The translations under genes and the position numbers were made by a program. A stretch of 64,000 bases of DNA. Origin: Cladocopium goreaui. Taxonomy: Eukaryota; Sar; Dinophyceae; Suessiales; Symbiodiniaceae. Below are positions 7,648 through 43,658 of this stretch, piece after piece (the first letter of the stretch is position 1; each line of letters starts with the position of its first letter). The stretch is taken from contig CAMXCT020000335.1 in assembly GCA_947184155.2 (NCBI GenBank), forward strand, positions 1,482,992-1,546,991. The letters are read 5' to 3'. The notes under the pieces are model-generated. The model was not told the origin of the DNA. It saw nothing but the letters and a program-made list of their open reading frames with translations, and did not search any database.

Positions 7648-8838
7648 ATGTCTGAAAACGGTGGTGGAAGTGAAGAGCGAGGAGGTGCTTGGTCCAATGT
7701 TCCCACCTGGGATGGCAGCCCTTTGACGTGGAGGCAGTTCAAAAGGGAGATGAAATGGTGGGTCAGCAGTTTGGACCTGGCATCAACGGCCAGGTATAAC
7801 CTGGCAGCAAGATGGTTGATGAAGCAGTCTGGCATTGTGCGCCAGCGGGGTGAGGAGTTCGACCCGGACGAGCTGAAGCACCAACCCCAGGTTGAGGCCC
7901 GGGATCCTGATTCTGGTGATATGGTGGTAATCACCCCTGTTGACTATCTCAGCGGTTTGAATCGTCTTTTGGAAGCCCTTGAGGGTATCAATGGAAAATC
8001 ACCACTGGATAAGCGCGGTGAGCTGAGGAGTCATTTTTACAATCAGTTGCATCGGAAGCCATGTGAGCGAGTCAGCGAATTTTCAACTCGTTTCCGCACA
8101 GCTGTGGCCGATCTGAAAAGTGAGGGAGTGACTTTGCCCCCATCTGAATTGGGATGGTTTTACATGGAGAAGCTTGGTTTGGATTCTTTGCGTAAACAAC
8201 TGCTTGAAACATCCTTGCAAGGTCGTGATGAATATGATCACATTGAACAGGAGTCTTTGCGTCTTTTTCGAGACCTTCATCAAGCAGACCCACTGTTCAG
8301 AAGACTTGGCAGTGATCGCATGGATAACAAGCCCAAGCTAACAATTAGACGTATGTTTGGCTCTGGCGCTACGCCATCTGGTTCGAGTTCAGCTGCATCT
8401 TCAAGCTCTTTTCGAACGTTGTCAGATGTGAGCCGTCGATCTGGCTCATCCACTCCGGCGAAAAGGGTCTATTTGACTGAAGTGCCGGAGGAGACAGTTG
8501 ATGCACCGGCGGATGCTGAGCCGGATGTTGCTGAGGACGATGCAGAGTCGTCTTTAGAAGCTGCAATTCAACGAGAAGCCCAAGCCTTTGCAACTGAACT
8601 TGAGGATGCAGAGCAGGATGGCATGGATCCAGCGGCACTAGAGGCTTTAGAAGCCAACTTTGAATCTGCAGCGGAAACTTTGGTGACTATGCGAGAAGCC
8701 AGGACTCGGCTTCAGGAAATTCGAAAAGACAGGGGCTACAAGAAAGCTGATGGGAAGACTGCTGCGGCCTTCTCGGCCATTGGGCTGGTGACAAAGAATG
8801 TCAGAAACCTGGCCAAGGACTTGCAAAGAAAGGTGTGA
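7648..8838 (+). CDS. gag: Gag-like protein of the copia element
   Basis: The 396-codon frame is the first in the element, 116 bases after the left LTR. The N-terminal part has the copia gag pattern of a short Trp-rich start (TWDGSPLTWRQFKREMKWWV, residues 20-39) followed by a helical domain. A Ser/Ala-rich stretch lies at about 235-270 and an acidic, helical tail at 280-370. No CCHC zinc knuckle is present, unlike many copia gags. The product would form the particle that packages the element RNA. Its stop (TGA 8836-8838) overlaps the next frame, which is -1 relative, so protease may be made by frameshifting, but no classic slippery heptamer is seen at the overlap. Confidence 0.85.
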   Translation: MSENGGGSEERGGAWSNVPTWDGSPLTWRQFKREMKWWVSSLDLASTARYNLAARWLMKQSGIVRQRGEEFDPDELKHQPQVEARDPDSGDMVVITPVDYLSGLNRLLEALEGINGKSPLDKRGELRSHFYNQLHRKPCERVSEFSTRFRTAVADLKSEGVTLPPSELGWFYMEKLGLDSLRKQLLETSLQGRDEYDHIEQESLRLFRDLHQADPLFRRLGSDRMDNKPKLTIRRMFGSGATPSGSSSAASSSSFRTLSDVSRRSGSSTPAKRVYLTEVPEETVDAPADAEPDVAEDDAESSLEAAIQREAQAFATELEDAEQDGMDPAALEALEANFESAAETLVTMREARTRLQEIRKDRGYKKADGKTAAAFSAIGLVTKNVRNLAKDLQRKV

Positions 8839-9134
8839 AAGCAGCCATCAAGCAAGTCCGCTTCACCGAAGTTTGTGCGTCAGATGTTGATCCAACAACT
8901 CTTGCAGATGATGGAGCACCGATTCATGAAGCTTCCATGGTTTTGCATTCCCCTGGACTTAGCCTTGACCAAGCATTGCATGCCAACATCTACGGCACCA
9001 GCCATCCAGTGATGTTGTCTGATGCCAGGAACCTTTCCAAGGACAAGATGCTCGTTGGTGCTCTCGACTCAGCTTGCAATCGTACTTGCACTGGGCCAAA
9101 ATGGTTGGAAGCCTATACAAGCCAGACTTCGTGA
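8835..9134 (+). CDS. Aspartic protease, N-terminal half (copia)
   Basis: This frame carries LVGALDSACNRTCTGPKWL, which fits the active-site strand of copia proteases with the catalytic Asp in the form DSA (other elements have DTG or DSG). It then stops at 9134. The remainder of the protease fold continues in another frame from about 9115, so a +1 shift separates the two halves. Its role would be cleavage of the gag-pol polyprotein. It begins at a GTG that overlaps the gag stop; an ATG start is not evident, so it was probably part of one gag-pol frame. Confidence 0.65.
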   Translation: MKAAIKQVRFTEVCASDVDPTTLADDGAPIHEASMVLHSPGLSLDQALHANIYGTSHPVMLSDARNLSKDKMLVGALDSACNRTCTGPKWLEAYTSQTS

Positions 9135-10818
9135 GTCAGCCCCACCTTTTGTGACTGAGCTGATTCAAGAAATCACGGAGCATGAGAACTTCAGGTTCGG
9201 CAATGGTGGAGTGGTGCCTAGCACTCATCGATGGCGAATCCCAGCATTTGTGGGTGGTCGTGTTTTGCTGATTTGGGTGTCATTGGTTCCAGTTCCCTCT
9301 CTTGGCCTGCTTTTGGGTCGTGATTTTTTGGAGTCAGTTGGCGGAGTGCTGGATTTTGTAGACAAAACTATCAGCTTCAAGCACCTTGAGGCCGAGACCC
9401 AACGTTTGGAGCAGATGTCTGCGGGGCACTACATGTTGCCTCTTCTTGCAGAGCTTTGGCCGAGGCTCCCAGTTTTACGATGGAAGCGTTGTGGTTTGGA
9501 TGGCATCATTGAATTGCAGATGAGTTCCAAAGATTGGTTGCATCGTTGTTTGACTGACAAGCAGAATGAGTTGAAGACAACCAGCAAACAAGTGAGTGAC
9601 CATTTTCTTACTGAGCATTTCAATGAGTATGTTTTTTCTGGGCCTCCGGCTCAAAGCAAGACTGCGGACATCCCCATGTCAAGCAGTGCATTTCAGACGC
9701 ACATTGTGGAGTCTTTTTGTGATGAGTGCCTCAGAAGCCCAAACAGCGTCACAGCCATGGCGGTTGGGTCCCCTGGATGTGAACGAGACAATCAGGCACC
9801 TGAGGCCTGCGGCAGCAAAGATGTTTTACGAGGAGACAGGGTCCTACGGCCAAATTTGGTACCGTTGGAGAAGATTCATCCTTCGCGCCCAAGAGCGTCG
9901 AGCCTGGCACGAACAAAGTTTGCTTTTGTGGTTGCTATCGCACTCGCAGCTACGTTTTGTGCCTTTTCCATACCCTTCCATCGAAACTCCAAAGCAATGG
10001 GAGGAACAGGCTCGTGCTCAATGTCAAGCTGGAACCCTCATTGGCTCTCATTTGCAAATGGCCTTGGACAAGAAGAGATTCAATGCCCAGAACTTGCAAG
10101 CCTTGAGCCAGTTTCGCAATCGTTGCGGATGGAGGCTGGCATTCCTCGAAGATCCAGTTTTGGATGGCTTGTTGGCCGCTCGATCACACCGAGGCCAAGC
10201 AAGCAGACTGAAGCAAGCTTCCATGACCGAGTTAAGAAGCAAGCTGCCGCCGATGCTCAAAAGACTGGCCGTGCTGCGGCCATTCGTCAATTGATTAACC
10301 CGAGAGGTGGACTTCCCACGCTCAAGGGCGATCTGATCAAGTTGGCCCACCTTGTGGATGTTCAAGTGGAAGAGAAGGACACGATCCCAGTGATCAGAGC
10401 CAAGGTTCAGCCCATTGCGCAGGACATTGCAATGACCTGTCCGGCAACTTCGGCACCCAAAGCCAAGTCCTCGGCCGCACCATCGACACCGGCCCCAGCA
10501 TCACCTCAGCCAGAGGGCGCACCTTTGAGATCAACGTGGTCCGTGCTTTCAAGTCCAAGTCCAGAGTTGAGGACAGTGGCCGACATGGAGCGCCTGGGTC
10601 GTCAAGAAGCCCTGGCAGATCAAGTGCAGTTCATCGAGGATCGCATGAGTCAGATGCTGGAGAACCGGGTGGGAACAATGTTGCACGAATCAGAGAACCG
10701 AGTGCAGGGTCTTCTGTCTCAGGTGGTGCAACATGTGATGGCAATGAGCTCACAGCAAGTGAGCAATCAGATGGAACCCGAGGATGCCGAGATGTTTCCC
10801 CCTCAGATGCCGAAGTGA
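9115..10818 (+). pseudogene. Protease C-terminal half and linker region (copia), frame-shifted
   Basis: In this frame the protease continues as SAPPFVTELIQEI..., the flap region and the LGLLLGRDFLESVGGVLDF block (the hydrophobic-hydrophobic-Gly motif of retropepsins; about 9,295-9,355). From about 9,640 to 10,230 the plausible coding passes to another frame (see the next entry), then returns here with a Lys/Ala-rich, SAP-like stretch (RGGLPTLKGDLIKLAHLVDV, about 10,300-10,365) and a helical Glu/Gln-rich region ending at 10,818. Beyond the protease the function is unknown; the LPTLKGDLIKLA segment resembles short DNA-binding SAP helices, which is inference. Confidence 0.5.
9640..10240 (+). pseudogene. 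Copia linker segment in an alternate frame
   Basis: Within an open frame at 9596-10294 the protein reads as an ordered, Trp- and Arg-rich helical segment (for example YRWRRFILRAQERRAWHEQS and KQWEEQARAQCQAGTLIGSH), whereas the competing frame reads as scrambled sequence. I infer that the ancestral polyprotein ran through this frame and that single-base indels near 9,640 and 10,230 now separate it. No known domain was recognised. Confidence 0.4.
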
Positions 10819-11795
10819 TGCCAGAAGCTTTCAAGTTGAAGGCGGATTGCAAAGTGAAGCCTGCCATCAGGCAGATGATTTCTCAGGCTTGGCAACGACA
10901 CCGCAAAGATCAACTGGCGGTGTCCACCAATCAACAACGAGTCATGGAAGTGTTCAACATGACTTGGATCAATGAGATGAAGCAGCATGAGAATCAGGCT
11001 TTCACGGTGGACATGAGCTTTCCAGATCCTTTTGTGACTGAAGTGTTCACCGACACGGAACCCATTGCTGCTGCAGCTCGTCGTATGGGCCTCAATGCCG
11101 GTCACAGCCTGACGTTGAAGACAGGTTGGGATTTTATGGAACCCAATCGCCGAAAAGCTGCGTTGAATCTCATTGATTTTCTCAAGCCTGAAGTTGTGAT
11201 TTTAGCTTTCCCTTGTGGCCCTTGGTCACCCTTGCATCGTTTGAACCCTCCAGAAGATTTGCAAGAAAGAAGGGAAGCTGCGAAGCAGCTGGTTTTGTTT
11301 GCCTTCGAGGTGGCAACTTTGCAGTTGAAGGCCGGCCGACATTTCATGATAGAGAATCCACAACCTTCCGCAGCCTGGCAATTGGAGGAGCTGAAGAAGT
11401 TTGAAGCTCGCCCAGATGTCTTGTCAGTTATTGTGGATATGTGCGCTTTCAATTTGCGATCTGAAAATGGTGGCCTTCACCGCAAACGAACAAAACTGCT
11501 CTCTTCCAGTCAAGCCTTGATTTCGAATATGATAGGCCGACGTTGTGATGGCAGACACCAGCATGACCCAGTCATTGGCGGTTCCAAGATCACAGAAGCC
11601 GCTGGACACTACAGCCGCGAGTTTTCTGAAGCTGTGGTTAATTCCTTCATGGAACAGTTTGACTTTGAGACTTTAGCAATATTTCAAGCTATGAAGCCCT
11701 GCATGAGGTCAATGCCGCTGGTTTGCAAGATGATGCGGCAGATGGCTCAGAGTTGCAAATCGAGTCAGATGGATCGTTTGAACTATAGCCAATGA
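10790..11795 (+). CDS. Cytosine-C5 methyltransferase-like domain of the copia element
   Basis: In the open frame 10536-11795 the recognisable part starts near 10,790. In order: a motif-I-like strand VTEVFTDTEPIAAAARRMG; EVVILAFPCGPWSPLHRLN with the Pro-Cys of motif IV (Cys codon 11,214); FMIENPQPSAAW with the Glu-Asn-Pro of motif VI (Glu codon 11,352); a basic HRKRTKLLSSS block like motif VIII; and a tail CDGRHQHDP...GHYSREFSEAV. C5 methyltransferases of retrotransposons have been reported in dinoflagellates and a charophyte alga, so the role may be DNA methylation, but motif I lacks the usual Phe-x-Gly-x-Gly and the PCQ Gln is Gly. The YR element at 35.8 kb carries a related domain. The true C-terminus probably lies in another frame from about 11,690. 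Confidence 0.6.
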
Positions 11796-13251
11796 TGATG
11801 AAAGTTTGGTGGTAACTCCTGCTGTGAAAGCTGCAGTTTACAGACTGCATGTGAACACTGGCCATCGCAGCTCCACTCGGCTGGCACGTGCTCTTCTCTT
11901 GTGTGGAGCTCCCAAAGAAGCTGTCTTGGCTGCTCGCCGCCTGAAGTGTGCAGTTTGCCAAGAAAGACGCCAGCCACGGGCTCGATTGCCAGCAGGTCTT
12001 CCTCCACCTCGTGAAGTTGGACAGCAAATCCATGTAGATCTGGTGTTGGTTGAAGATTCCTTGCGGCAAACCTATGTGGTTGCACATGCCACTGATGCTG
12101 TTTCGAGATTTCAAGCTGCGGCCGTGTTGAAGGACAAGTCCTCAGAGTCCTTCATTGAATTTCTGAACACCAGATGGTTGCCGCTTTTGGGCACGCCTAT
12201 GACCATCATTGCTGACCAGGGAAGGGAGTTTATTTCTTTTGTGTTTGCCGATTGGTGCGACAGCAAATCAATCCATCTGCAGCACATTGCAATCGGAGCA
12301 CCTTGGCAGAATGGTATCGCTGAACGCAGTGGTGGCACCTTGAAGGCGGTTTTGGGCTCTATCACACACACCCACTTCATTTCAACAGTGAGTGGTATGG
12401 ATCAGGCAGTTTCTGAAGCTGTATCAGCTTACAACGATGATGTGCATGACAATGGCATTGCGCCGATTCAGTGTGTGACAGGCCGCATTCCACCGGCTTA
12501 TGGCGATGTGCTGAACAACCTCTCACAAAGACTGGCGGAGCACTCGCTCATATCTGCAGAACCTTCACTGGCGAAGCAAGTTGCACTTCGCGAAACGGCC
12601 AGATTGGCCATGGTTCGACTTCACTACAGTCGAAGCCTTCGCACAGCTGAGCTTGCGAGATCCAGATCTTCTACGCAGGATCGAGTGCCTACGCCGGGCG
12701 ATTTGGTTTTCTTCTGGCGAGCCCAGAAGTATGCAGGCCGTTCAAGTGGCCCCGGCTCAAGACGCAAATTGGCTTTGCGAAGATGGCATGGTCCAGGACT
12801 TCTTGTGGCCATGGAAGGTGATGTCGCCGCCAATTGCTTCATCTCCTATCGTGGGCAATTGACCAAATGTCCATTAGAGCATGTTCGAGCAGCCTCTTCG
12901 CTCGAAAGCATTGCGGCTGGCTCTTGGCAGGCAGCCATTGATGAGGTGATTGACGCTGCTAAGCATGATGCAGGGCGAGATCAAGGAGGTCAGACTGCTG
13001 CGTTGGAAGATCAAGAACCTTTGCCAATTCCAGTTCCGGGTTCGACACCTGCGAGTTTGTCACCGCAGGAAATTGTGGCCGCGTTGCAACCTCCGCCTGA
13101 GGCCTCGGTGAGCATTGGACCTACGCCGAGATCTTCCATTGCTTCAGGTGTTTCAGCCCCAGCTAGCTCTGCAGCTCCAGGAACGCCCATTCCGGACTTG
13201 ATTTTGCAAGCATCTCAAGTTCCGGTGCCTGGCACCCTCTGTTCAATCTGA
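11782..13251 (+). CDS. Integrase (copia)
   Basis: This is a DDE integrase that would insert the cDNA copy. Counting from the GTG at 11806, the zinc-binding HHCC domain is H15-X4-H20-X27-C48-X2-C51. The core has D78 in QIHVDL, D137 in IIADQGREF and E173 in NGIAERSGG, giving the DD35E spacing (35 residues between the second Asp and Glu). A C-terminal basic region with PGDLVFFWRAQKYAG (about residues 297-311) fits the copia/gypsy GKGY-like C-terminal domain. The frame opens at 11,782 after a stop; upstream polyprotein sequence (acidic, DDAADGSELQIESDGSFEL) lies in a different frame, so a one-base shift separates the units. It stops at 13,251 while the same protein appears to continue in the +1 frame. 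Confidence 0.9.
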   Translation, partial: TIANDDESLVVTPAVKAAVYRLHVNTGHRSSTRLARALLLCGAPKEAVLAARRLKCAVCQERRQPRARLPAGLPPPREVGQQIHVDLVLVEDSLRQTYVVAHATDAVSRFQAAAVLKDKSSESFIEFLNTRWLPLLGTPMTIIADQGREFISFVFADWCDSKSIHLQHIAIGAPWQNGIAERSGGTLKAVLGSITHTHFISTVSGMDQAVSEAVSAYNDDVHDNGIAPIQCVTGRIPPAYGDVLNNLSQRLAEHSLISAEPSLAKQVALRETARLAMVRLHYSRSLRTAELARSRSSTQDRVPTPGDLVFFWRAQKYAGRSSGPGSRRKLALRRWHGPGLLVAMEGDVAANCFISYRGQLTKCPLEHVRAASSLESIAAGSWQAAIDEVIDAAKHDAGRDQGGQTAALEDQEPLPIPVPGSTPASLSPQEIVAALQPPPEASVSIGPTPRSSIASGVSAPASSAAPGTPIPDLILQASQVPVPGTLCSI

Positions 13252-13261
13252 ACCGAGTTCT

Positions 13262-15808
13262 TTGCAGCAGACTTTGCAGCGTGCAAGGAGTTTGGATGAC
13301 CTGCAACGTGGAGTCAAGCGTCCTTCAGAGCTTGACCCTTTGGATTTGGATGTGCAGCCGCCACCCAAGTCTTCTGCAGTGGCTTCTAGTTCTTTGGAAT
13401 CGCAGCCTGCGTTTGATGCCCTGGTTTTGACCAATGAAGAGCTTGAGAAGTTGTCATCGCAGCAAGATCGTTTACACCCCTTGCTGCAACTCCAAATTGA
13501 TGTTGAAAAGGATCGCCGAGACCCTTGGTCATGCCTGGAAGATGATCATGGCACTTGGGATGGCAGATGGTCCTACATGTGCCAACGTGATTGGCAGACC
13601 ATGCAGAAGTTGGGTCAGAAGTTTCCCAACGGCGAGTCTTTGTTTGACGACTTTGAAGTCAACCTTGCCCAGACTGCTCGCAAAGAATACCATTGGAGCA
13701 AGATGACTCCGGAAGAGAAAGCTCTATGGGGCGAAGCTGCAGTGAAGGGTTGGAATGCCTATATAGACAACAATGCCATAGAGATCCTGTCCATGGAGGA
13801 AAGCCGGCGAGTTTACAATGAGCTGGCCAAGCAGCAAGAGCTGGACAGAATCCTTGTTCCAAGGTTTGTCTGCACAGACAAGAATGATGGTTTGAGATCA
13901 GCTTCGCATCCTTTGCCTGTGAAACCTTCTGCCCGCATGGTAGTGCCTGGTTTCAAGGACAGAGCCAATCTTGAAGGTCAGCTGAGAAGAGATGCGCCAA
14001 CAGGCTCGAGATATGCTTTTTTCATTATTGCTGCATTTCATGAAACTTGGGCTTTGATTTCTGCAGATGTGAAGGCTGCCTTTCTCAAAGGGGACCCATA
14101 TGTCTCACGATTGCTTTGGATTGCCGCGACCAATGCAAAGACAAGCCCGCCGATTCCTTTGCAAAAGGGCCAGTTGGCCAAGATCGTCAAGGGCGTGTTT
14201 GGTTTGGCCGATGCCCCACGCCAATGGTGGTTGCGACTGGCAAGAGCTATGTCCGAGCATTCATCTCCCATGAGTTGCATTGATGGTGCACTATGGTTTC
14301 TCTGGGGAAAAGATGCCAATGCTGACGGCACTAGAACCTTGCAAGGTGTGATCGTCAGTCATGTGGACGATTTGCTATTTGCTGGATCCCCAACAGCCGA
14401 ACAATCTCTCATGGCCATTGGGGCTGAGCTTGGTTTTGGCTCGATCGAGCGAAATGATTTTGTTTGGTGCGGCAAACGCATTCGCAGGGCACCAGATGGC
14501 ACAGTTCGTGTTTCTATGGTGGAATACCATGAGAATGTGGCCGAGATTGTGATCGACCGACATCGCAAACGAGATGTCACAGCTGCGCTGAACCCGTCAG
14601 AAGCCAAGAAGCTCAGAGCTGTTATTGGAAGTTTGCAATGGCTAGTTGCACAATGTCGTTTTGACATGGGCTTCAGTGTGAGCGCGATTCAAGGAGAAGT
14701 TCTGCCAACCATCTCTACGTTGATTCGTGCCAACTCCTTGGTTCGTGAGTTCAAGTGCCACAGCAATTTTGAATTGGTATTCAGACCTATGGATTATCGC
14801 AAAGCTGGAATCGTTGTGGTTTCAGATGCAGCCTTGGGCAATGTGACTCGAGAAGGCAGCAATTGCTATTTTGTTTTGGTGGCTCAGCCTGAACTCCTTC
14901 AAGGAGATGAAGGTGTGTTCAACATTTTGGACGCTCGGTCCCACCGAATCCCTCGAGTTTGCAGGTCTACATATGCTGCAGAGACTCTTGCAGCGGAGGA
15001 GAGCTTGGATTGTGGACAACTGGCTCGTGGCCTGCTAGCTTTAGCTCAAGGTCGCCAATTGAGTGGTCGTAAAGCCAACCTTCTCATGAACAGTGTTCCA
15101 TTGACTGCAGTGGTGGATTCGGATGCCAAAGATGTCTACGACAAATCAAATTCCGACACTCCAAGTTTTGGTAGCCAAAAGTCAATGGCTTTTAGCATTG
15201 CGTGGATGCGCTCCATTCTGCGCCTCCCAAACAGCTGCTTGAAATGGACATCCAGAGAGAACATGTGGGTGGATGGTGGCACAAAAGAAATGGACTTGAC
15301 GCACATGCGTGCTATCATGTCCCGGGGGAAGTGGTCTATACCCTACAGTCCAGAATTTGTCAAGCAGGTAAGCAAGGCCAAAACACTCAAGCCTTCGGTG
15401 CAGTCAGCATGCGTTGACCTTCCTGGAGTAAGAGTTGAGGATGGCGAGCCCTTGTTGGCATTTCTTTGGGGTCTGGCGGAGAAACGAGGCTGGCACTTGC
15501 GGAATGGGATAGGCATTCAAGTTGCCTTCAACGCCAAGTCCTTCCGGACACCTGAACCAAGATTTTCCGCATCCCAGAAGCCACTGAGAAGCAGCTATGC
15601 ACGTTTCAATCTGGACGACGCACGATATGAATGGCGCCGTTTAGAGAGGGCCGTTAGGTACAGCGAGTTGCCGAATCAGCATGCGCTGATCGATGTGGCA
15701 GCACCAGTGTTAATTAGCATGTTTCATGCTGAGGCCAATGCTGAGTCATCCATTTCTGATCAACAAAAGAATGAGACAAATGTGAATTGCACCATTGATC
15801 ATGGATGA
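13262..15808 (+). CDS. Reverse transcriptase and RNase H (copia)
   Basis: This 848-codon frame is the largest of the element. The RT domain has VPRFVCTDKN and PSARMVVPGFKD near the start, the first catalytic Asp in SADVKAAFLKGDP (residue 269), VFGLADAPRQWWLRL, and the second catalytic box as HVDDLLFAG (Asp residues 369-370; copia usually has YVDD, so Tyr to His). RNase H follows with Asp 522 in VVVSDAALG, Glu in TLAAEESLD and Asp in VDSDAKDVYD. It synthesises cDNA and degrades the RNA template. The stop lies 28 bases inside the right LTR. The start is arbitrary, since coding-like sequence in this frame extends upstream across the integrase stop (PSVQSEPSSLQQTLQ). Confidence 0.92.
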   Translation: MQQTLQRARSLDDLQRGVKRPSELDPLDLDVQPPPKSSAVASSSLESQPAFDALVLTNEELEKLSSQQDRLHPLLQLQIDVEKDRRDPWSCLEDDHGTWDGRWSYMCQRDWQTMQKLGQKFPNGESLFDDFEVNLAQTARKEYHWSKMTPEEKALWGEAAVKGWNAYIDNNAIEILSMEESRRVYNELAKQQELDRILVPRFVCTDKNDGLRSASHPLPVKPSARMVVPGFKDRANLEGQLRRDAPTGSRYAFFIIAAFHETWALISADVKAAFLKGDPYVSRLLWIAATNAKTSPPIPLQKGQLAKIVKGVFGLADAPRQWWLRLARAMSEHSSPMSCIDGALWFLWGKDANADGTRTLQGVIVSHVDDLLFAGSPTAEQSLMAIGAELGFGSIERNDFVWCGKRIRRAPDGTVRVSMVEYHENVAEIVIDRHRKRDVTAALNPSEAKKLRAVIGSLQWLVAQCRFDMGFSVSAIQGEVLPTISTLIRANSLVREFKCHSNFELVFRPMDYRKAGIVVVSDAALGNVTREGSNCYFVLVAQPELLQGDEGVFNILDARSHRIPRVCRSTYAAETLAAEESLDCGQLARGLLALAQGRQLSGRKANLLMNSVPLTAVVDSDAKDVYDKSNSDTPSFGSQKSMAFSIAWMRSILRLPNSCLKWTSRENMWVDGGTKEMDLTHMRAIMSRGKWSIPYSPEFVKQVSKAKTLKPSVQSACVDLPGVRVEDGEPLLAFLWGLAEKRGWHLRNGIGIQVAFNAKSFRTPEPRFSASQKPLRSSYARFNLDDARYEWRRLERAVRYSELPNQHALIDVAAPVLISMFHAEANAESSISDQQKNETNVNCTIDHG
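15765..15780 (+). promoter_or_regulatory. Polypurine-tract candidate
   Basis: AAAAGAATGAGACAAA directly precedes the right LTR. It is purine-rich with one T and one C interruption; by position it should prime plus-strand cDNA synthesis. Confidence 0.45.
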
Positions 15809-35190: not shown

Positions 35191-35848
35191 AGCTACGAAG
35201 TAAATAGTTAATCATCACAAGAATGGCTTATGAATGTAGATCCCCAAGCGAAAGCCTGAAATAACAGCGCATCTTAATGGCTGGGGAACATTGGCCCTGA
35301 TATGCGGCTTCTAAATTTGTTGGTTGCTAGACAGGGGAGGAGGCTGAGACGATCTGATTCTTACATCTGCCCAGTTGACAAACCCAATTCTGGATTTATG
35401 TTTGGGAATATCTCACATGTTTAGGGAATACTAAACATGAATAGACACTAGGTTATTTGCATCCGCATTAATTAGAAAGCTATTAGTTGGTAAAAGTGCA
35501 CCTTAATTTGTATGATTTACACCCTTAAGACTTACATCCTAATAAGTGATTATTGGGCACTCTAACAACTTATCCCATGAGTATCCCAGTCTTGTTGCAA
35601 AAAAATGTGTGTTGAGTTTCATTGAAGTCAAATTGGGCCCAGATTGTTAGCCATTGGTGAAAACTGTTGTGAGCAATATGTGGCCATATCGGCTGGCCAA
35701 ATATTTCCCAACCCACAAGTTCTTCGTTTGTTTGGGACAAGAACAGGAAAAACGCAACTTTAACTAGCAAAATACATGGTTTCCCTTCAAATAGCCACAT
35801 GTTTTTCGTTGAATCCCCTTGGTGTCTTGATGTTTTTTCCCCCTTCTG
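35191..35848. other. Spacer left of the YR retroelement
   Basis: AT-rich, no gene recognised and no clear repeat. Confidence 0.5.
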
Positions 35849-35981
35849 GGGAAAGGAAATGGAGCCCCGGAATTTCCTGCTGAACAATTCAGCATGCTAA
35901 GGGGTTGGTGGGTGGATTGCTTGCCATGGGTGCCATTTTGGCTCAAGTGCCCTGGCAAGCATCCACCCATTGTTTTGTTTT
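35849..35981 (+). repeat. Split direct repeat A1
   Basis: 133 bp, GGGAAAGGAAATGGAGCCCC to CACCCATTGTTTTGTTTT, repeated as A2. It holds a long hairpin with a spliced-leader-like loop and the start of the first open frame. Confidence 0.95.
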
Positions 35982-38900
35982 TGCATTCATGGGTGGCCTC
36001 GCGTATGGCCTGGCCTTTGGAGCTAGCGCCATTTTCGTCGCTGCGTGCTTGCAGGGCATTCTATGGGGTGGAGGACCCGGTTTGGGATGCCTTCATCAGA
36101 GCTGCCGGCGATCCGGGGGACGACTACCGGTTGTTGGCAGCTTTGCCTCCAGCCGCCCTCGCGGCCACGACCGAGGCGGCAACGATGGCTTCAGGGGAAC
36201 ACCTCACTGTAGTCCAGGCCGCACAGGTGGGATTGGTGTACCGTCTTGCGAGGCGGAAGTTGCACGTGGAGGCGGGATTGGACATCAGGTTGTGGGTGGA
36301 CCCGGACCCATGGGCAGACGCCCCAACGGCGACACCACCGATCATGGAGCCCACGGACACGTCGAAGGCTTTGGTGGAGAGGAAGATGAAATTTTCAGCG
36401 GTGCTGGACCAGGGGGACGAGTCAGAGTTCGTCATCTCCTCGGAGGAGCAAAAGCAGCGCTGGCTGGAGAACTTTGTACGCCAGACTGGTGGACTCCCGC
36501 TGGAACAGGAAGAACCCTCCACCGAGCAGATATCTGCCTTGCTGAGGAGGGTGAATTCAGGTGGAGCCCCCTACGCAGACTTCTCGGTGTGGCTGCCCTA
36601 CGGCAAGAAGGCTCACAGGACCCAGAAGTACCGGTCCTACATACCGGTGATGGGGGGCTACATCACGAAGGAGATCCCTGGCCCAGGGTCATTCGACCAG
36701 TGGAGAGCCAGCTTCAGGGTCTACAGGACGGCAATGCTCATGCTCGACATCCTGACGATGGCTACGTGCGTGGCGTACGAGGCCCATGTGGAGAAGCTGG
36801 ACCGACTTTTACCCAGGGGCCTGGCACCTCATCGTGGCGGCGGACGACCTTGGGAGATCAGAGCACTTGGTAAGACTGAGGGTCTCAGTGAACCTGGACA
36901 TCGCCAACGGCACGAAGGAACCAATGGGATGGGCAGCAGAAAACCCTTGGGAGTGCCTATTCAGGATGCTCGTGAAGGACAGCTCGTTCTGGGCGGAGCA
37001 GGTTCATGTGCCAGCGAATGCATGGCTGGCGCACGGATCCAAAGGAAAGCCGCTGACGCCGGCGGAAGCGGTCGCTGCAGCCTCAATTCAAGGAGGCATC
37101 AATGCGATCAAGCCGGACACGGAATCCACGGCGGGGACACCATCTTCGACACGAAGGACAAGGAACGCCAGGAGAAGAGAGGCGTCCAAACGGAAACAAA
37201 CAGATGCCGAAGGTCCGACAGACGCCAAGAAGATCAAAGGCGACGGGAAGGGCAAAGGCAAGGGGAAAGAGAAGCCACAGGCATGCTACGCCTGGAACAA
37301 CAACAATGGGGCCTGTGCTGGCTTACCACCAGGTGCCGCCTGCCAAGGAAGGGTGGCAAGGGCGCACGCATGCACCAAGTGCGGCTCGGTGGGACACCCT
37401 TCATGTCAATGCCCTCAGAAGGACGGTTGATCGCCCAGCTGCAGATGGATTGGTTTTGCAGGACCCCCACAACAAGGCGAAGGTCGGACATGGGAGATGA
37501 TGCCAACAAGACATCATGGTATCCACCACTTTGGATGTGGGCAGGCTCGAACGCTGACCGCCGGGGAAGAGAAAGGCGGGACAGCCGCAGCGGGGACAAA
37601 GATAAGGCCGGCGAAGAGAGATCAAGATCCAGGAGGCGTCGAAGGCAGCACAACGAAGACAAAGCCGAGTTCAACGGAAAGCTCATGACGTTGGACATTT
37701 ACCTGATGAAACGCAGGTTCTTCTTCCTGCACCTTTACTCAGGTCCCCATGACCCCTTGGGCACTACGTTGGAGAGGCTCGCAAAGAGGTGCAAGATGAA
37801 GGTCACGGTGGAAAGCTATGACCGTGAAAATGGAGGAGCCGATCTACTGGCAGATCAACCCTATGCGAAACTCCTCCAACAAGCCCGTGAGGGCAAGTGG
37901 GACGGGTACCACGCAGGGTTCCCATGTACCTCCTTCTCGAGATTGCGGTGGCGGGAGAGAGAGGGCTATCCAGGTCCATGCCGCTCCAGATCACACCCTT
38001 ATGGGATACCAGGGAACTCAGTTGCTCTTCAGAAGGAATGTGATCAGGGGACCCTACATGCCTCCAGGTCATTAATGATGGCTGAAGTCATTGCAAACTC
38101 CAGGCCTGACGACGTCATCAAGCCCGCAGTGACGGTGGAAAACCCCCCGCCATCCGACCACGACCAACATTGCTCGGCATGGGAACTTCCGGAAGTGCAC
38201 AGCGCGGTGGAAAAGCTGGACTGGACGAAGGTCGCCTTCACCTCCTGTCATTTCCAACGGAGGGTGGAGCTGGGCAAGAGGACCTTCAAACCCCAGATGT
38301 TCGCTGGGAGTTTGCTGGGCATAAGGTCTTTAGCCGGAACCTGCCCCTGTGGGAAAGCCGATCACATTCCTGTGGTAGGTAAGGCCAGATCGGTGGAATC
38401 GGGCCATTACTCAGACGAGCTGTGTGAGGCCTACGCTGAACTGGTCATCCATCACTTCAGGAGACTAGCCACCGCCGAGTTCTACGCCAAGAGGGAAGCA
38501 GACTTGAAGAAGGAGGTGGATGAACTACGCCGCAAGAGCGCCAAGAGGGAGAGGTCCCCATCACCAGCAGGGAATGCCGATGAACCAAGGGCAAAGACCA
38601 AAGAGGAGGAGGCGGAGCAGGCAAAAGCCGAAAGCACAGCCACCTCCAAATCAAAGGCAAGACCCAAGGAAGAAGATGAGTACACCTATGAGTACGAGAC
38701 GGAAGATGACGAGGACACGAAGGTTCCGATGAAGACGGAGAAGGACGACCCCAAGGAAGCAAAAGCATGGATTGGAGGGAGCGGCAACTACGGCATGCTG
38801 AAGGAGTCGAAGGCGAAGGAAAACAACCCAGCCAACCTCAACTACTTGGGCGGCATGAGGAACCCCACTGAAACGGTGGAAGGAATGCCAGGCTCCCTCA

Positions 38901-40999
38901 ACTTGGGGCTCAGAATCTTTGCAGCGTGGGAGAGGTTTGTCAGCCGGAACCCGCGCGCGGTGGAGACATCTTCAACCTATGGCACCGCCGACTGCAAGAT
39001 GGACAAACCAACAGTGGAGAAGTGGAAGGCCGAACTACGCAAGCTGGTGGGCAGTCAAGGCAAGCCCACGGTGGACCTTCAGTCAAGATGGAGGTACAAG
39101 TCCCCGCTTGATGCGGACCTCATCAGGGCGTGGACCCGCAAGTCCGGGGACCCCGACACGGACCTCGCAGACTGGGTGGAGAAGGGCACCCCACTAGGCG
39201 TCAACCTCGACATCGAGCCGAAGGGCGTCTTTCCCCCATCGGACAAGGAAGGCGAGCCAGAGGTGATGATGGACGCCAGCCTGCAGATAGCACGGGGGTC
39301 GCTCACCAACTACACCAGCATCGCAGACAACATGGAGGACGCCAAGGAGGAGATACAGAGGCTCCTGGACCTTGGGTACGTGATGAAGGTCTCGAAGGAA
39401 CAGGTGGACCAGCACTTCTCACAGGGCACCATCTCCAAACTGGCCATCATTGTCAAAACGAGGCCAGACGGCTCTTGCAAGAGGAGTTTGATAATAGACC
39501 TCAGGCGCTCCGGAGGCAACAGCAAAGCGCGACTTCGTGAGAAGATCGTGTTGCCGAGGGCCATGGACGCGGTGGCCATGGTGCGGAGTCTACACAAACT
39601 CCATCAGCAAGTCACCGTGGAGGAGCAGAAGGCCAGATGGACCAGGGAGCTCACGCTCATAGACATCGCAGATGCCTTCCCTCACCTGCCGGTGCACGAG
39701 AAGGAATTGGAGCACACCCTGACCCCTGACGTTGAGGGCGACGGCTACCTGCTGTTCAGGGCCTTGTTGTTCGGCTTCCGCACTGCCCCACTGCTGTGGT
39801 CGAGGATGGCAGCGTGGACGTCCAGGGTGTTGCAAGCCTGCCTCCCACATGATGAGGCACAGCACCAGACCTACCTCGATGACTCATTGTGGGCACTGCA
39901 AGGCACCCTCGCTCGCAGGAACGTCATCCTGAGCTTCGTCCTGTACACGATGGCGGCGATTGGCTTCAAGCTCTCGGTGGGCAAAGGTGAAAGAGGCTCT
40001 GCAGTGACGTGGGCAGGAGTAGAGTTCAAACTCCTCTCGGACAGGGAGGTGTTGGTCACCCTGCCGGAGAAGTTCATCGCCGACCTGCAGGGGAGGATCA
40101 AGGAATGGGAAGGAAGAGGCATGGCGCCTATGGCCGAGCTGCGGACGGTCACGGGGAAGCTCTCCTGGCTCTCCGGGGTCCTACCAAGGACGAAGTGGAT
40201 CCTGAGGGTCTTCTACGCCGTGATGGCGGACAGGGAGGCCGAAGTGAAATCAGGCAAGGAGGCGGTAAGGAGGGACAACCGAACGGACCAGAGGAACAAG
40301 GACGGCCTCTTCGTGGTCAAACGTCTGGAAGGTGCCCGTTTGGCCTTGACCCAGTACCTCAACGTGGCGAAGGAAAGGCTGTCGAGGAAGATTGCTCTCA
40401 CCGCCCGGGACAAAGCCAAGGTGAACATTATCACTGACGCCTCCCCGGAAGGGCTGGGCGCGGTGCTGGTCATCAATGACCAAGTCATTGACACAGTGGC
40501 GTCCCCGGTCACGGAGTTCGACGCGAAGGCACTGGGCTTCGAGCTGGGCTCTTCCTCCTCTCAAGGGGTGGTCGAGGCTTTGGCCATCATCATGGCCTTG
40601 CACCACTGGGGGGCCAAGCTGGCAGGCATGAACGTACATATCACCATCCAATCGGATTCGGTGACAGCTTTGGCCACCACCCAGAAGAAGTCAGGAGCCT
40701 CAGCCGCCCAGAATTTCTGCGGCGCCGTGTTGGGTGTGCTGTTGGAGCGGTACAGAGTGGAGGATGCCAAGCTCCAGCACATCCCCGGCGTGGCAAACAA
40801 GGTTGCAGACTATTTGAGCCGGCCGTCGATGTGGGGGAAGTCCACCAGACCACCCGAGGTTGGCGAAGGAACCATCTCGGCGAGTGTTGTCAGGGACGAT
40901 GACTTCTATCCCTTACCGACGCCAGGCCGCCGACCGGACCTTTGGGGCAAGTCGGAAGATACAGACCCGACAGGACCCTGGATGTCTTGGCTTGGTTAA
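35894..40999 (+). CDS. Gag-pol of the YR retroelement: gag, methyltransferase-like, RT, RNase H
   Basis: One frame is open for 1,701 codons. Residues 1-300 are gag. Between about 36,790 and 37,430 the better reading is the next frame (separate entry). From residue about 600 a methyltransferase-like domain has FFFLHLYSGPHDPLGTTLER, GFPCTSFSRLRW (Cys 678), TVENPPPSDHD (Glu 749), KRTFKPQMFAGS and CPCGKADHIPVVG...GHYSDELCEAY. A charged Lys/Glu-rich linker follows (about 850-960). RT has LTLIDIADAFPHL (Asp 1257), LLFGFRTAPLLWSRM and QTYLDDSLW (Asp 1329-1330). RNase H has IITDASPEGLG (Asp 1515), VVEALAIIMALHHWG and ITIQSDSVTAL, ending near LQHIPGVANKVADYLSRPS. The true start could be the Met at 35,894 or later in A1. 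Confidence 0.85.
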   Translation: MLRGWWVDCLPWVPFWLKCPGKHPPIVLFLHSWVASRMAWPLELAPFSSLRACRAFYGVEDPVWDAFIRAAGDPGDDYRLLAALPPAALAATTEAATMASGEHLTVVQAAQVGLVYRLARRKLHVEAGLDIRLWVDPDPWADAPTATPPIMEPTDTSKALVERKMKFSAVLDQGDESEFVISSEEQKQRWLENFVRQTGGLPLEQEEPSTEQISALLRRVNSGGAPYADFSVWLPYGKKAHRTQKYRSYIPVMGGYITKEIPGPGSFDQWRASFRVYRTAMLMLDILTMATCVAYEAHVEKLDRLLPRGLAPHRGGGRPWEIRALGKTEGLSEPGHRQRHEGTNGMGSRKPLGVPIQDAREGQLVLGGAGSCASECMAGARIQRKAADAGGSGRCSLNSRRHQCDQAGHGIHGGDTIFDTKDKERQEKRGVQTETNRCRRSDRRQEDQRRREGQRQGEREATGMLRLEQQQWGLCWLTTRCRLPRKGGKGARMHQVRLGGTPFMSMPSEGRLIAQLQMDWFCRTPTTRRRSDMGDDANKTSWYPPLWMWAGSNADRRGRERRDSRSGDKDKAGEERSRSRRRRRQHNEDKAEFNGKLMTLDIYLMKRRFFFLHLYSGPHDPLGTTLERLAKRCKMKVTVESYDRENGGADLLADQPYAKLLQQAREGKWDGYHAGFPCTSFSRLRWREREGYPGPCRSRSHPYGIPGNSVALQKECDQGTLHASRSLMMAEVIANSRPDDVIKPAVTVENPPPSDHDQHCSAWELPEVHSAVEKLDWTKVAFTSCHFQRRVELGKRTFKPQMFAGSLLGIRSLAGTCPCGKADHIPVVGKARSVESGHYSDELCEAYAELVIHHFRRLATAEFYAKREADLKKEVDELRRKSAKRERSPSPAGNADEPRAKTKEEEAEQAKAESTATSKSKARPKEEDEYTYEYETEDDEDTKVPMKTEKDDPKEAKAWIGGSGNYGMLKESKAKENNPANLNYLGGMRNPTETVEGMPGSLNLGLRIFAAWERFVSRNPRAVETSSTYGTADCKMDKPTVEKWKAELRKLVGSQGKPTVDLQSRWRYKSPLDADLIRAWTRKSGDPDTDLADWVEKGTPLGVNLDIEPKGVFPPSDKEGEPEVMMDASLQIARGSLTNYTSIADNMEDAKEEIQRLLDLGYVMKVSKEQVDQHFSQGTISKLAIIVKTRPDGSCKRSLIIDLRRSGGNSKARLREKIVLPRAMDAVAMVRSLHKLHQQVTVEEQKARWTRELTLIDIADAFPHLPVHEKELEHTLTPDVEGDGYLLFRALLFGFRTAPLLWSRMAAWTSRVLQACLPHDEAQHQTYLDDSLWALQGTLARRNVILSFVLYTMAAIGFKLSVGKGERGSAVTWAGVEFKLLSDREVLVTLPEKFIADLQGRIKEWEGRGMAPMAELRTVTGKLSWLSGVLPRTKWILRVFYAVMADREAEVKSGKEAVRRDNRTDQRNKDGLFVVKRLEGARLALTQYLNVAKERLSRKIALTARDKAKVNIITDASPEGLGAVLVINDQVIDTVASPVTEFDAKALGFELGSSSSQGVVEALAIIMALHHWGAKLAGMNVHITIQSDSVTALATTQKKSGASAAQNFCGAVLGVLLERYRVEDAKLQHIPGVANKVADYLSRPSMWGKSTRPPEVGEGTISASVVRDDDFYPLPTPGRRPDLWGKSEDTDPTGPWMSWLG
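35910..35968 (+). promoter_or_regulatory. Hairpin with spliced-leader-like loop in A1
   Basis: Arms 35,910-35,926 (GGGTGGATTGCTTGCCA) and 35,953-35,968 (TGGCAAGCATCCACCC) pair over 16 bp with one bulged T. The 26-base loop contains GCCATTTTGGCTCAAG (35,932-35,947), identical to the last 16 bases of the 22-base dinoflagellate spliced leader as I know it. An inner GGG/CCC can extend the stem. The same structure is in A2. Confidence 0.8.
36786..37430 (+). CDS. Gag C-terminal part with zinc knuckle (alternate frame)
   Basis: This frame reads as ordered gag: RFYPGAWHLIVAADD-like (here FYPGAWHLIVAADDLGRSEH), ENPWECLFRMLVKDSSFW, VHVPANAWLAHGSKGKPLTP, a basic stretch DAKKIKGDGKGKGKGKEK and the Cys/His module CYAWNNNNGACAG then CTKCGSVGHPSCQC (a CX2CX4HX4C knuckle). 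The other frame is scrambled here. The shift point lies in CTTTTACCC near 36,793: with one T fewer the upstream frame would continue directly into this one. At 37,430 this frame stops and the methyltransferase/RT part is in -1, so gag may end here with pol reached by frameshift. Confidence 0.7.
   Translation: MWRSWTDFYPGAWHLIVAADDLGRSEHLVRLRVSVNLDIANGTKEPMGWAAENPWECLFRMLVKDSSFWAEQVHVPANAWLAHGSKGKPLTPAEAVAAASIQGGINAIKPDTESTAGTPSSTRRTRNARRREASKRKQTDAEGPTDAKKIKGDGKGKGKGKEKPQACYAWNNNNGACAGLPPGAACQGRVARAHACTKCGSVGHPSCQCPQKDG
37680..38470 (+). other. Cytosine-C5 methyltransferase-like domain in the YR element
   Basis: Domain of about 260 residues within gag-pol. It keeps a motif-I-like strand, the Pro-Cys (codon 37,925) and Glu-Asn-Pro (Glu codon 38,138) of motifs IV and VI, and a C-terminal K-x-x-x-P...C-x-C...H-x-P...GHYS pattern shared with the copia domain at 10.8-11.7 kb. 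DIRS-type elements usually carry a Dam-like adenine methyltransferase domain instead; here the type and position differ. Activity is not established. Confidence 0.6.
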
Positions 41000-41148: not shown

Positions 41149-43251
41149 ATGGCTGGCCCTGACAGGGCTCGTTTGCCACGCGACAGCCTTGGCTTGGGCC
41201 TGTCTGAGATGCTGCAGACGCAGGCAAACCTGCCCTTTCGACCCCTGCACGAGGGTCAACGCGGGGAGGGTGTGGGCATGGGAAGCAATGCATCCGGGGT
41301 GTCTATTACGAGACTACTCCGAGTGCCCGCGACAACGTCAATCGAGCCAAGGAGGAGCGGACCAAGCAGCGCCAGCCAGGGGTTTGACAACCCTGGTGAA
41401 CCGCAGGAACCCTTCGAGGCGAACCAGTCAAGGGTAACCATGAGCGATGTCTTTGGGAGAAGTCGAGGTCGTGGTGCTCATGGTGACGAAGGACAATATG
41501 AGGGACCAAGCGTCTCAATGGGGGAAGTGTTTGGCAGGACCAGGCCACAACCCCTTCACAATGATATGGGCAGCCATCTGAGCCCAAGCGCAGGACTGAG
41601 CAGTTTTGGACGGCTGCATCGAACCACCTTGGTAGACAGAGAGCCGCCCATGGAGTTCGTGCCCGGCATGATGGTACCTGCAAACGTCGAGAGGGGTGAC
41701 ACCCAGAGGGAAAACACAGCAGAGGGAGGCATCTTCGGCGCTGCCCCAGCCCTGAGCAGGGTCTTCAAGATGGCGTCCGAGACGTGCAAGTCGGTATACA
41801 ACATGTGGAGCCCCAAGAAGGAACCCAAGGAGGACAAGACGGAGAGGATAGCCGTCCCGAAGCTCAACCTAGACGGCAAGCCAGCCTCGCAAGGCTCCCG
41901 CAAGAGGAAGGCAGTGAACGTGTTGGAACTGGCCAGAAGGGCGAGCAGGAGCAAGACAGCCGTCGCAGAGCTGGAAGAGGGCTTCAACTCGAAGACGTCG
42001 GTGGCCACCAAGAAGGCGATGAGGGCTACTATTGGAAAGATCCTCAAGGAGGCGAGGGGCGAGCCGCCGGTACCCCCCACTACGGCCACTACGGAGAAGC
42101 TGAAGGTGCTTGCGGGTGTGCTCAAACAGGCCAACTATCGCGCGGCACCGCAATACCTGGGAGAGTTCAAGATCATGGCAATCGAAGGGGGCCACCAATG
42201 GTCCGACCAGCTCGAGAGGACTTTGAAGCTTTGCAAAAGGTCCACAACGAGAGCTCTGGGGCCCAAGAAGAAGGCCAAGGAAGTCCCGGTGCAAGAGACG
42301 GGCAAAACCTTTGTCCCAACAGTGACGAGGAAGAAACCTAAGACGGTCCCGCTAGCCAGGGAGCTGTTCGAGTTTGGAGTGATCTGGATGCTTCGCGAGA
42401 TTGAGCTGGCCCTGCTGACGAAGGATCACCTGAAGGTGGACGTGGAGAGCCGTAGTGTGGTCCTCACCATACCGGTGTCGAAGACGGACCAAACAGGGTT
42501 GGTGATGACCAGGATGCTGCAGTGCCTCTGTGAGAGTAAGGATTGCTCCACGGGGTGTCCACTGCGAGTGTCAGCCCTGCTCGTCTTCGGCATGGAGGAC
42601 TTGAAAACACACCACGCCGCCGTGACCAACAAGGGCAAGAAGGCAAAGAAGTCCCAGGTCGTCAAGGAGTGGCAGAAGCTCTATGGAAAGGGCACATCCG
42701 GACACTCCACCAGGAGAACAGGGGCCCTACGGTACATCCGGCATGGGTGGGCCATCCCACAGGTGGCCTACCTTGGGCGTTGGAAGTCCGACGTGATCTA
42801 CGAGTACGCGGCCGAAGCTTTGGAAAGCCTGCCGGTCAATGCCAACAGAGCCTTCATCACGAACCTCTACGGCACGAAGGAACACAATGAAATGGGGCCC
42901 ATCAATTATAAGCCCAGGGACGTGGAGGAAGTCAGAGATTACCTCCTCTCCGAATTGTCCCTGGCACAGGAGCACCAGCAGCGCGCCTTGAAAGCCATGG
43001 ACTTTGAAATCGAGTCCATGAAGAAAAGGGCCGACCGAAACAACGGGAGACTTCCCCCCTTCGTCAGGTTGCTCGACAGCAGGATCGTGCACCACAACTG
43101 GAACATGACCGCCTGCACTCCACCTCTGGCCTGGAAGACGATGTGCGGCTGGCACTACCACAAGTCGGACTACATGTTCCTGGCGTCGGAGGAAGGAGGA
43201 CAAGTCTGCAAAAAGTGCATGGAGATCGCGCAGTTGCAGAAGAGGGTATAA
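41149..43251 (+). CDS. Tyrosine recombinase of the YR retroelement
   Basis: The 700-codon frame would integrate circular cDNA through a Tyr nucleophile. A long N-terminal region with repeated VTMSDVFGRSRG / VSMGEVFGRTRP motifs (residues about 98-133) precedes the catalytic domain. Catalytic residues visible: Arg 416 in WMLREIELALL, a Lys in IPVSKTDQTG, His 519 and Arg 522 in GHSTRRTGALRYIRHGW, Trp 545 in YLGRWKSDVIYEYAAE and Tyr 551 or 553. A C-terminal CGWHYHKSDYMFLASEEGG with VCKKC suggests a zinc-binding module. The start is uncertain: hydrophobic sequence just upstream (LLIQWLALTGLVCHATALAW) lies in another frame. The stop is inside repeat B1. Confidence 0.88.
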   Translation: MAGPDRARLPRDSLGLGLSEMLQTQANLPFRPLHEGQRGEGVGMGSNASGVSITRLLRVPATTSIEPRRSGPSSASQGFDNPGEPQEPFEANQSRVTMSDVFGRSRGRGAHGDEGQYEGPSVSMGEVFGRTRPQPLHNDMGSHLSPSAGLSSFGRLHRTTLVDREPPMEFVPGMMVPANVERGDTQRENTAEGGIFGAAPALSRVFKMASETCKSVYNMWSPKKEPKEDKTERIAVPKLNLDGKPASQGSRKRKAVNVLELARRASRSKTAVAELEEGFNSKTSVATKKAMRATIGKILKEARGEPPVPPTTATTEKLKVLAGVLKQANYRAAPQYLGEFKIMAIEGGHQWSDQLERTLKLCKRSTTRALGPKKKAKEVPVQETGKTFVPTVTRKKPKTVPLARELFEFGVIWMLREIELALLTKDHLKVDVESRSVVLTIPVSKTDQTGLVMTRMLQCLCESKDCSTGCPLRVSALLVFGMEDLKTHHAAVTNKGKKAKKSQVVKEWQKLYGKGTSGHSTRRTGALRYIRHGWAIPQVAYLGRWKSDVIYEYAAEALESLPVNANRAFITNLYGTKEHNEMGPINYKPRDVEEVRDYLLSELSLAQEHQQRALKAMDFEIESMKKRADRNNGRLPPFVRLLDSRIVHHNWNMTACTPPLAWKTMCGWHYHKSDYMFLASEEGGQVCKKCMEIAQLQKRV

Positions 43252-43370
43252 TGTGCGTAACCATGCACAAAGGAGACCCAGCTGCAGCACAGATCCCAGC
43301 TGAGGTCAACCCAACCAGGTTCCACCATCCGAAAAAGATGTCTCTGGTGTTGGATGCATGTGGAATTGTT
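43242..43370 (+). repeat. Split direct repeat B1
   Basis: 129 bp starting GAGGGTATAATGTGCG and ending GCATGTGGAATTGTT; it begins ten bases before the end of the recombinase frame. Confidence 0.95.
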
Positions 43371-43503
43371 GGGAAAGGAAATGGAGCCCCGGAATTTCCT
43401 GCTGAACAATTCAGCATGCTAAGGGGTTGGTGGGTGGATTGCTTGCCATGGGTGCCATTTTGGCTCAAGTGCCCTGGCAAGCATCCACCCATTGTTTTGT
43501 TTT
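43371..43503 (+). repeat. Split direct repeat A2
   Basis: 133 bp, matches A1 and joins B1 without a gap. Confidence 0.95.
43432..43490 (+). promoter_or_regulatory. Hairpin with spliced-leader-like loop in A2
   Basis: Second copy of the hairpin; GCCATTTTGGCTCAAG is at 43,454-43,469. Confidence 0.8.
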
Positions 43504-43529: not shown

Positions 43530-43658
43530 GAGGGTATAATGTGCGTAACCATGCACAAAGGAGACCCAGCTGCAGCACAGATCCCAGCTGAGGTCAACCC
43601 AACCAGGTTCCACCATCCGAAAAAGATGTCTCTGGCGTTGGATGCATGTGGAATTGTT
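43530..43658 (+). repeat. Split direct repeat B2
   Basis: 129 bp, one difference from B1 (CTGGCGTTGG for CTGGTGTTGG). A 26-bp CCCACCCACCCA-containing spacer separates it from A2. Confidence 0.95.

Follow-up and report, generated by a model that had tools for sequence, protein, structure and literature searches.

On comparison of their sequences, numerous families of DIRS-type retrotransposons in the genome of Cladocopium goreaui are best read as carrying, in their A repeats, a copy of the host spliced leader (SL) tail that is under selection. The motif concerned, the 16-mer GCCATTTTGGCTCAAG, corresponds to bases 7–22 of the dinoflagellate SL. In the window, i.e. the whole stretch of 64,000 nucleotides analysed here, it occurs exactly at two positions, 35932–35947 and 43454–43469, both on the plus strand and each within one of the two A repeats of a single element. 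The earlier sequence-only reading of the window had left it open whether the element once captured the SL or uses it as a cis signal; the conservation of the SL tail together with hairpins formed by different letters favours the cis signal over a one-off capture.

Identity of the 16-mer

The assignment of the 16-mer to SL bases 7–22 was confirmed against the published dinoflagellate SL, which reads DCCGTAGCCATTTTGGCTCAAG in the literature, as well as against a full SL in this genome (locus L012). The latter carries letters identical to the window 16-mer, is followed by GTACAC and is likely to be an SL RNA gene of this genome. The candidate gene is located among three tRNA genes (780–2300 of L012).

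The genome searched comprises 1,165,616,438 bases in 6202 contigs and contains the exact 16-mer at 746 places, as compared with 0.54 expected at equal base frequencies and none for the reversed control. The earlier judgement that such a match does not arise by chance is thereby borne out. Within the window, four matches are obtained with up to three mismatches (mean of shuffled sequence 0.85). The 21-base SL is present at 172 places of the genome (reversed control 0). An A precedes base 7 in 302 of the 746 16-mers, including these 172 full SLs, and is lacking in the other 444.

As had been concluded before, the element copies do not represent an SL RNA gene: SL bases 1–6 are missing, and GT as a donor after CAAG is found in none of the 20 flank clusters described below, with GC in three of them. 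A retrogene carrying an SL relict was likewise discarded, the motif being present in both A repeats with element sequence on either side. The internal position of the motif in A also led to rejection of a site at the edge of the element.

Six contigs of IMG/VR contain the 16-mer, none of which gives a tblastn match to the ORFs of the elements fetched in this study, and two protein scans of IMG/VR found nothing. One of its contigs (L059, 7157 bp, AT-rich, filed as viral) carries the SL tail twice on the minus strand (2746–2908), starting at CCGTAG or CCGTA, 147 bp apart and with GC after each. It possibly represents dinoflagellate SL genes or a virus of a dinoflagellate; no Rfam match was obtained for it.

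Architecture of the window element

Judged by its sequence, the window element is a DIRS-order retrotransposon of the split-direct-repeat kind (PAT/Ngaro/VIPER-like), with the layout A1 - ORFs - B1 - A2 - B2 obtained from repeat comparison within the window. All its features lie on the plus strand. The left A repeat A1 (35849..35981, 133 bp), which forms the 5′ end of the element, is 100% identical to A2 (43371..43503); by repeat search of the window A1 extends over 35844–35981 at 99%. B1 (43242..43370) is 99% identical to B2 (43530..43658), the 3′ end of the element. Both SL copies (A1, 35932..35947; A2, 43454..43469) match SL bases 7–22 exactly and are surrounded by fully identical A sequence, in agreement with the earlier description of a motif within a terminal repeat that recurs in A2.

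ORF1 (35894..40999) is an open frame from 35894 on, the start of which is inferred and perhaps lies at 36005. It is assigned to a reverse transcriptase, with a YLDD motif recognised by eye in the translation, and an RNase H; its Pfam matches to PF17917 (E 8e-5), PF17919 and PF13456 (RNase H-type) are all below the cut-offs, and the cut-off for RVT_1 is passed in three related elements (L042, L048 and L055). The first ATG after the 16-mer, at 35989, opens an ORF of 294 amino acids in a frame other than that of ORF1 and is indeed close to the motif, which ends at 35947. The first 300 residues of ORF1 and its remainder match L039 in different frames (window 35989–36873), and in either the window element or L039 the reading frame may thus change where a gag-like part passes into a pol-like one.

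ORF2 (41149..43251) is tentatively assigned to a tyrosine recombinase on the basis of a weak Pfam match and the residues HxxR ... GRW ... Y seen by eye. The PF00589 scores of ORF2 (E 0.0047) and of the relative L049 (E 0.0007) are both below the curated cut-off, and no PF00589 match was obtained for the ORFs of L040 and L045 in the Pfam scan. ORF1 furthermore contains putative cytosine methyltransferase-like motifs, recognised by eye. No Pfam methyltransferase matched window ORF1 (up to E 10) or L045 (up to E 1); the candidate regions of the two share 24% identity in blastp (E 1e-7). Downstream of A2 only B2 is found in the window element, and A2 has no ORF of its own.

Elsewhere in the window, several consecutive ORFs at 7648–15808 include an integrase core (PF00665) that passes its cut-off and an RVT_2 match that does not, by which this segment is classified as a Copia-like retroelement; it is free of the SL 16-mer. 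The segment 30001–34000 displays strong strand asymmetry (GC skew -0.26 and -0.43) and long ORFs on both strands.

One motif in many families

Among the first 100 listed places of the 16-mer, 22 pairs are located on the same strand at distances of 5.5–14 kb and none on opposite strands. Nineteen elements were examined, namely the window element and 18 fetched for having two 16-mers. An A repeat surrounds both 16-mers in all 19, and B repeats are present as well in 14; in the L040 family no B repeat is found in any of the five copies within the fetched DNA. The motif is positioned 57–195 bp inside A, and 14 bp in the truncated L044. By comparison with its sibling L051, the left end of A1 in L044 is truncated about 14–17 bases before the 16-mer, near the base of the hairpin arm.

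For comparison of the flanks, 33 copies were used: one each from the window and L039–L057 (20 in total), and 13 exact stretches from the recombinase-chosen sample described below. At 70% flank identity they fall into 20 clusters, between which the mean flank identity is 0.29. The proteins diverge as well, the identity of reverse transcriptase and recombinase to the window element falling to 22–30% where blastp matches exist, and the L040 family gives no blastp match to the window element proteins at all. Judged from the translations, L045 has its recombinase ORF upstream of the Pol ORF. The SL tail is conserved more than the rest of the repeat, being exact amid unrelated flanks; at its left end, bases 7–8 vary in other paired places.

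The L040 family (L040, L041, L046, L054 and L056) is abundant and, since dozens of recombinase copies are found at 96–100% identity, young. It carries a further long ORF after A2, and its 3′ end lies beyond the fetched DNA.

The position of the motif relative to the coding sequence is similar in most elements. From the A1 16-mer to the ATG opening an ORF of at least 120 amino acids in any frame, the distance is 19–76 nt in 17 of the 19 elements, the exceptions being L055 (274 nt) and L047 (no such ORF). In all five copies read of the L040 family the A1 motif precedes one long ORF by 58–59 nt and the A2 motif a different one by 61 nt.

Elements selected by their recombinase

A search with the window recombinase yielded 64 scored matches, 20 of which were picked for reaching the C-terminus, with most near-duplicates omitted. 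For each, a stretch of 221 bp located 100–320 bp downstream was read; 19 were readable and one consisted nearly entirely of N. The exact 16-mer is present in 13 of the 19 (10 clusters). Another stretch deviates from it by two substitutions or, as read here, by one inserted A, and the remaining five contain nothing within five substitutions of the 16-mer. Extension of two of these five by 400 further bases revealed no motif.

In addition, four recombinase queries gave 38 matches on the contigs as far as C489, and the coordinates of these matches were compared with the listed 16-, 15- and 14-base motifs. A listed motif is found on both sides of 18 matches, upstream only of six, downstream only of two and on neither side of 12, in a sample to which the L040 family contributes seven matches and for which all four queries stem from motif-bearing elements. 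The 12 matches devoid of a motif include all six that show 33–37% identity to the L045 recombinase. There thus seems to be a related recombinase group without the motif, so that not all such elements would need the SL tail.

Hairpins around the motif

Each motif was folded with 30 nt on either side (30+16+30 nt) and the 16-mer held unpaired; arms exchanged between clusters served as controls. The A2 copy of the window folds with 23 enclosing pairs, two bulges and a 17-base loop at -38.2 kcal/mol (43429..43493, plus strand), and the hairpin of A1 (35907..35971, plus strand) is taken from this fold of the identical copy. None of 38 arm swaps is as stable as the window hairpin. The location of the 16-mer in a hairpin loop proposed by the sequence-only reading is therefore retained, and the stem of 16 bp with one bulge is replaced by one of 23 pairs with two bulges.

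Averaged over the 20 clusters the energy is -23.56 kcal/mol, as compared with -13.66 kcal/mol (sd 0.80) after permutation of the arms, and none of 10,000 permutations is as low. The same holds for the nine clusters whose first member was protein-chosen (-28.08 versus -15.49, likewise undercut by 0 of 10,000). Counting enclosing pairs separates the two less sharply (15.1 versus 10.6 when permuted, reached by 4 of 10,000). Taken individually, nine of the 20 clusters are more stable than every one of their 38 single swaps, and in another five one or two swaps do as well, giving a clear presenting hairpin in 14 of 20. No clear presenting hairpin is found in L039, L040, L045, L048, L055 and L068, where 9 to 35 of the 38 swaps are as stable; the 16-mer of L040 is paired to a complementary stretch upstream of it. 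A universal hairpin was consequently dropped.

Since the stem letters differ between clusters, it is the pairing and not the letters that is kept. The anticipated conservation of the stem arms is accordingly seen as pairing in the 14 clusters; it does not extend to the letters, nor clearly to the other six clusters.

Left edge and drift of the motif

The motif does not start invariably at base 7. A base other than G at position 7, with bases 8–22 kept, is found at 445 further places (control 2). Among the first 100 of these listed, 28 same-strand and no opposite-strand pairs are counted, after removal of seven pairs of a tandem array on C191 (G000:C191:445133-449917), in which a 15-base SL tail recurs every ~630 bp on one strand. 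A base other than C at position 8, with at least bases 9–22 retained, accounts for another 572 places, where 6.5 are expected and the control gives 1; the first 100 listed contain 28 same-strand pairs versus one opposite-strand pair. From this pairing, the 15- and 14-base pairs are inferred to be elements of the same kind, and one of the listed places is located 1.2 kb downstream of a recombinase match (C448). The idea of a fixed start at base 7 was therefore abandoned on account of the pairs with other bases at positions 7 and 8. As far as the letters tell, the common core is the 3′ part of the SL, bases 9–22 being shared by all three sets.

With at most one mismatch, 1673 places are found (control 8). 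Of these, 927 carry one change, located at base 7 in 445 and within bases 8–22 in 482. The inner motif hence drifts as well, far less per base than base 7.

Further to the left, SL bases 1–6 are not kept, base 6 in the 20 clusters being T in 13, G in six, C in one and A in none. A at base 6 is found in none of the 22 G7 pairs (both ends), as opposed to 17 of the 28 A7/T7 pairs. Relict SLs are proposed to start with CCA because AG at bases 6–7 served as splice acceptor. The counts are suggestive of an avoidance of AG directly before CC by the elements; they refer to pairs and not to independent families, A is rare in the 5′ arms (13.6%), and the absence of A at base 6 from the 20 clusters has a P of about 0.05.

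Possible functions of the spliced-leader tail

The SL tail is exact while its flanks change fully, therefore a cause of the homology type or a factor fixed on the SL is needed. The presence of the motif in both A repeats suggests that copying or expression of the elements is tied to SL trans-splicing of the host. The explanation we prefer, and hold tentatively at somewhat less than an even chance, is that element RNA is trans-spliced at the CAAG of the SL tail and that the host SL supplies terminal redundancy by way of the SL tail in A2. According to this proposal, trans-splicing at CAAG would give an mRNA beginning with a true SL, whereby the left part of A1 would be lost and only its part downstream retained. 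Reverse transcription of such an RNA would produce a cDNA end complementary to the SL, for which the SL tail in A2, often open in a hairpin loop, would offer a matching sense site. A template switch at this site would then rebuild what had been removed from the left of A, so that the terminal redundancy would come from the host leader. More tentative still is the notion that the tail in the loop acts as a strand-transfer site and that each replication round compares it with the host SL or overwrites it from there; such a check would explain the exact tail in otherwise unrelated repeats. What the sequences show is the motif in both A repeats, its persistence where the A repeats are otherwise unrelated, the hairpins of most clusters and a position shortly upstream of an ORF; splicing of element RNA at CAAG, the template switch and any function of the loop are inferred.

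The proposed transfer at A2 fits the view that split repeats allow DIRS elements to regenerate their ends. Several observations speak against it. Unfavourable are the drift within the motif, the six clusters that have no clear hairpin, the recombinase matches devoid of a motif and, in the window element, the absence of an ORF after A2. A differing left edge at base 7, 8 or 9 is not what a fixed stop of the reverse transcriptase predicts, and the part of A downstream of CAAG could supply the homology by itself. For the L040 family, no place in the genome shows its A flank fused to a complete SL with up to two mismatches, and none of the 30 full-SL loci read runs into the A flank of a fetched element. 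Two of these 30 (L016 and L028) show a weak downstream likeness to recombinase ORFs (26% over 120 aa and 23% over 215 aa, respectively), for which there is no supporting Pfam match.

A separate observation concerns L016 and L022, where the full SL at base 1501 (SL strand) is flanked by the same 18-base stretch on both sides (TTTCCCCTCAAGTGTGCT in L016 and TCGGGCTCAGCTCTTTTG in L022, with a relict SL in between). These loci look as if the SL had been inserted into an older 5′ UTR or a trans-spliced cDNA had recombined with it.

Among the alternatives to trans-splicing and strand transfer, the one that survives best, and is still unlikely, is that the SL tail, with the TTTT run it contains, forms a core promoter or transcription start that gives the RNA a leader-like end without trans-splicing. 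The short distance between motif and ORF in 17 of 19 elements would suit such a function, a TTTT box in the SL has been suggested in the literature to drive transcription, and a genomic SL copy could give a leader-bearing message without trans-splicing (PMC2488372). However, most clusters retain the ability of the 5′ hairpin arm, which lies upstream of the motif, to pair, suggesting that a strand containing this arm is made, and a TTTT promoter needs no 14–16 exact SL bases including CAAG.

Somewhat less probable is recruitment by the loop of an SL-recognising host factor, such as the SL RNP or a leader-binding or translation factor, or of a packaging step. A site consisting of a sequence in a loop fits the presentation by unrelated stems, and a factor committed to the SL would account for the exactness of the letters, but the loop is not universal, six of the 20 clusters being without a clear one.

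Two further readings are improbable to a much higher degree. A passive relict, i.e. letters merely inherited from an ancestor that gained the SL from a trans-spliced RNA, would be in keeping with the literature, in which relict SLs are common in dinoflagellates, and with the 172 full SLs and frequent one-mismatch copies in this genome. Drift fails, however, to account for flanks at chance identity (0.29) around a motif which, in stretches selected independently of it, is intact in 13 of 19. Just as improbable is a role at the DNA level, the hairpin being a site of the tyrosine recombinase or of circle formation and the SL letters merely its shared core. The elements encode a recombinase and bear the motif in both A repeats; yet the motif lies off the element edge (57–195 bp inside A, 14 bp in truncated L044), and recombinases that are only 22–30% identical would need one core coinciding with the host SL. 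A chance match or artefact, conceivable in so far as the partial self-complementarity of GCCATTTTGGC might let it emerge close to hairpins, is practically eliminated by the 746 places versus 0.54 expected, the empty control and the paired repeats of many unlike clusters.

If the preferred trans-splicing proposal is true, a mobile element has made a tag from the RNA processing of its host part of its own termini, and the question of how a retroelement copes with trans-splicing, which removes the 5′ end of its RNA, becomes testable.

Comparison with known systems

In the main texts of the open-licence papers searched, no description of mobile elements with SL letters in their terminal repeats and no paper joining spliced leader, dinoflagellate and DIRS was found. 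The general plan of the window element is close to that of SymbioDIRS-Dnmt3 of Symbiodinium (PMC5890265), which has the same order A - coding - B - A - B, an RT/RNase H polyprotein and a separate tyrosine recombinase ORF. It is described in two ORF orders, which the window element and L045 resemble. Its polyprotein includes a methyltransferase, whereas window ORF1 has motifs seen by eye and no Pfam methyltransferase match. An SL tail and hairpin in A are not described in the text consulted; the main text does not use 'leader' and has 'trans-splic' once, on dinoflagellates generally.

PAT-, Ngaro- and VIPER-like DIRS elements (PMC6681497) share with the window element the arrangement A1 ... B1 A2 B2 as well as RT, RNase H and tyrosine recombinase, and the hosts of VIPER also trans-splice. 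Unlike for the elements reported here, 'spliced leader' is not mentioned in the main text of that paper. In the retrotransposon Cer1 of C. elegans (PMC3315495) a short mRNA can be SL trans-spliced, a site that reportedly goes unused for trans-splicing in its 8 kb RNA; the text consulted makes no mention of SL letters in the repeats. In an Amphidinium gene (PMC2488372) an SL-like genomic sequence is located exactly at the trans-splice site, in a host gene and not in a terminal repeat. According to the same paper, trans-splice acceptors are AG and follow no simple consensus. In Perkinsozoa the SLs vary (PMC9399869), and a study of m1A in dinoflagellate mRNA provided nothing on the SL cap in the text consulted.

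The same letters, SL bases 8–22, occur in the DinoRL relicts, genomic remnants of trans-spliced RNAs that had been reverse transcribed (PMC12014239, PMC6616646, PMC7245778). DinoRL relicts are positioned at the 5′ ends of retrogenes, whereas the element copies described here are paired and, if base 7 is G, never show A at base 6 (22 of 22 pairs). SL-like letters upstream of genes have been used as marks of retrogenes (PMC8045281). Searches of this kind could also count the elements reported here, 444 of the 746 exact 16-mers being without the A that precedes base 7 in the full SL.
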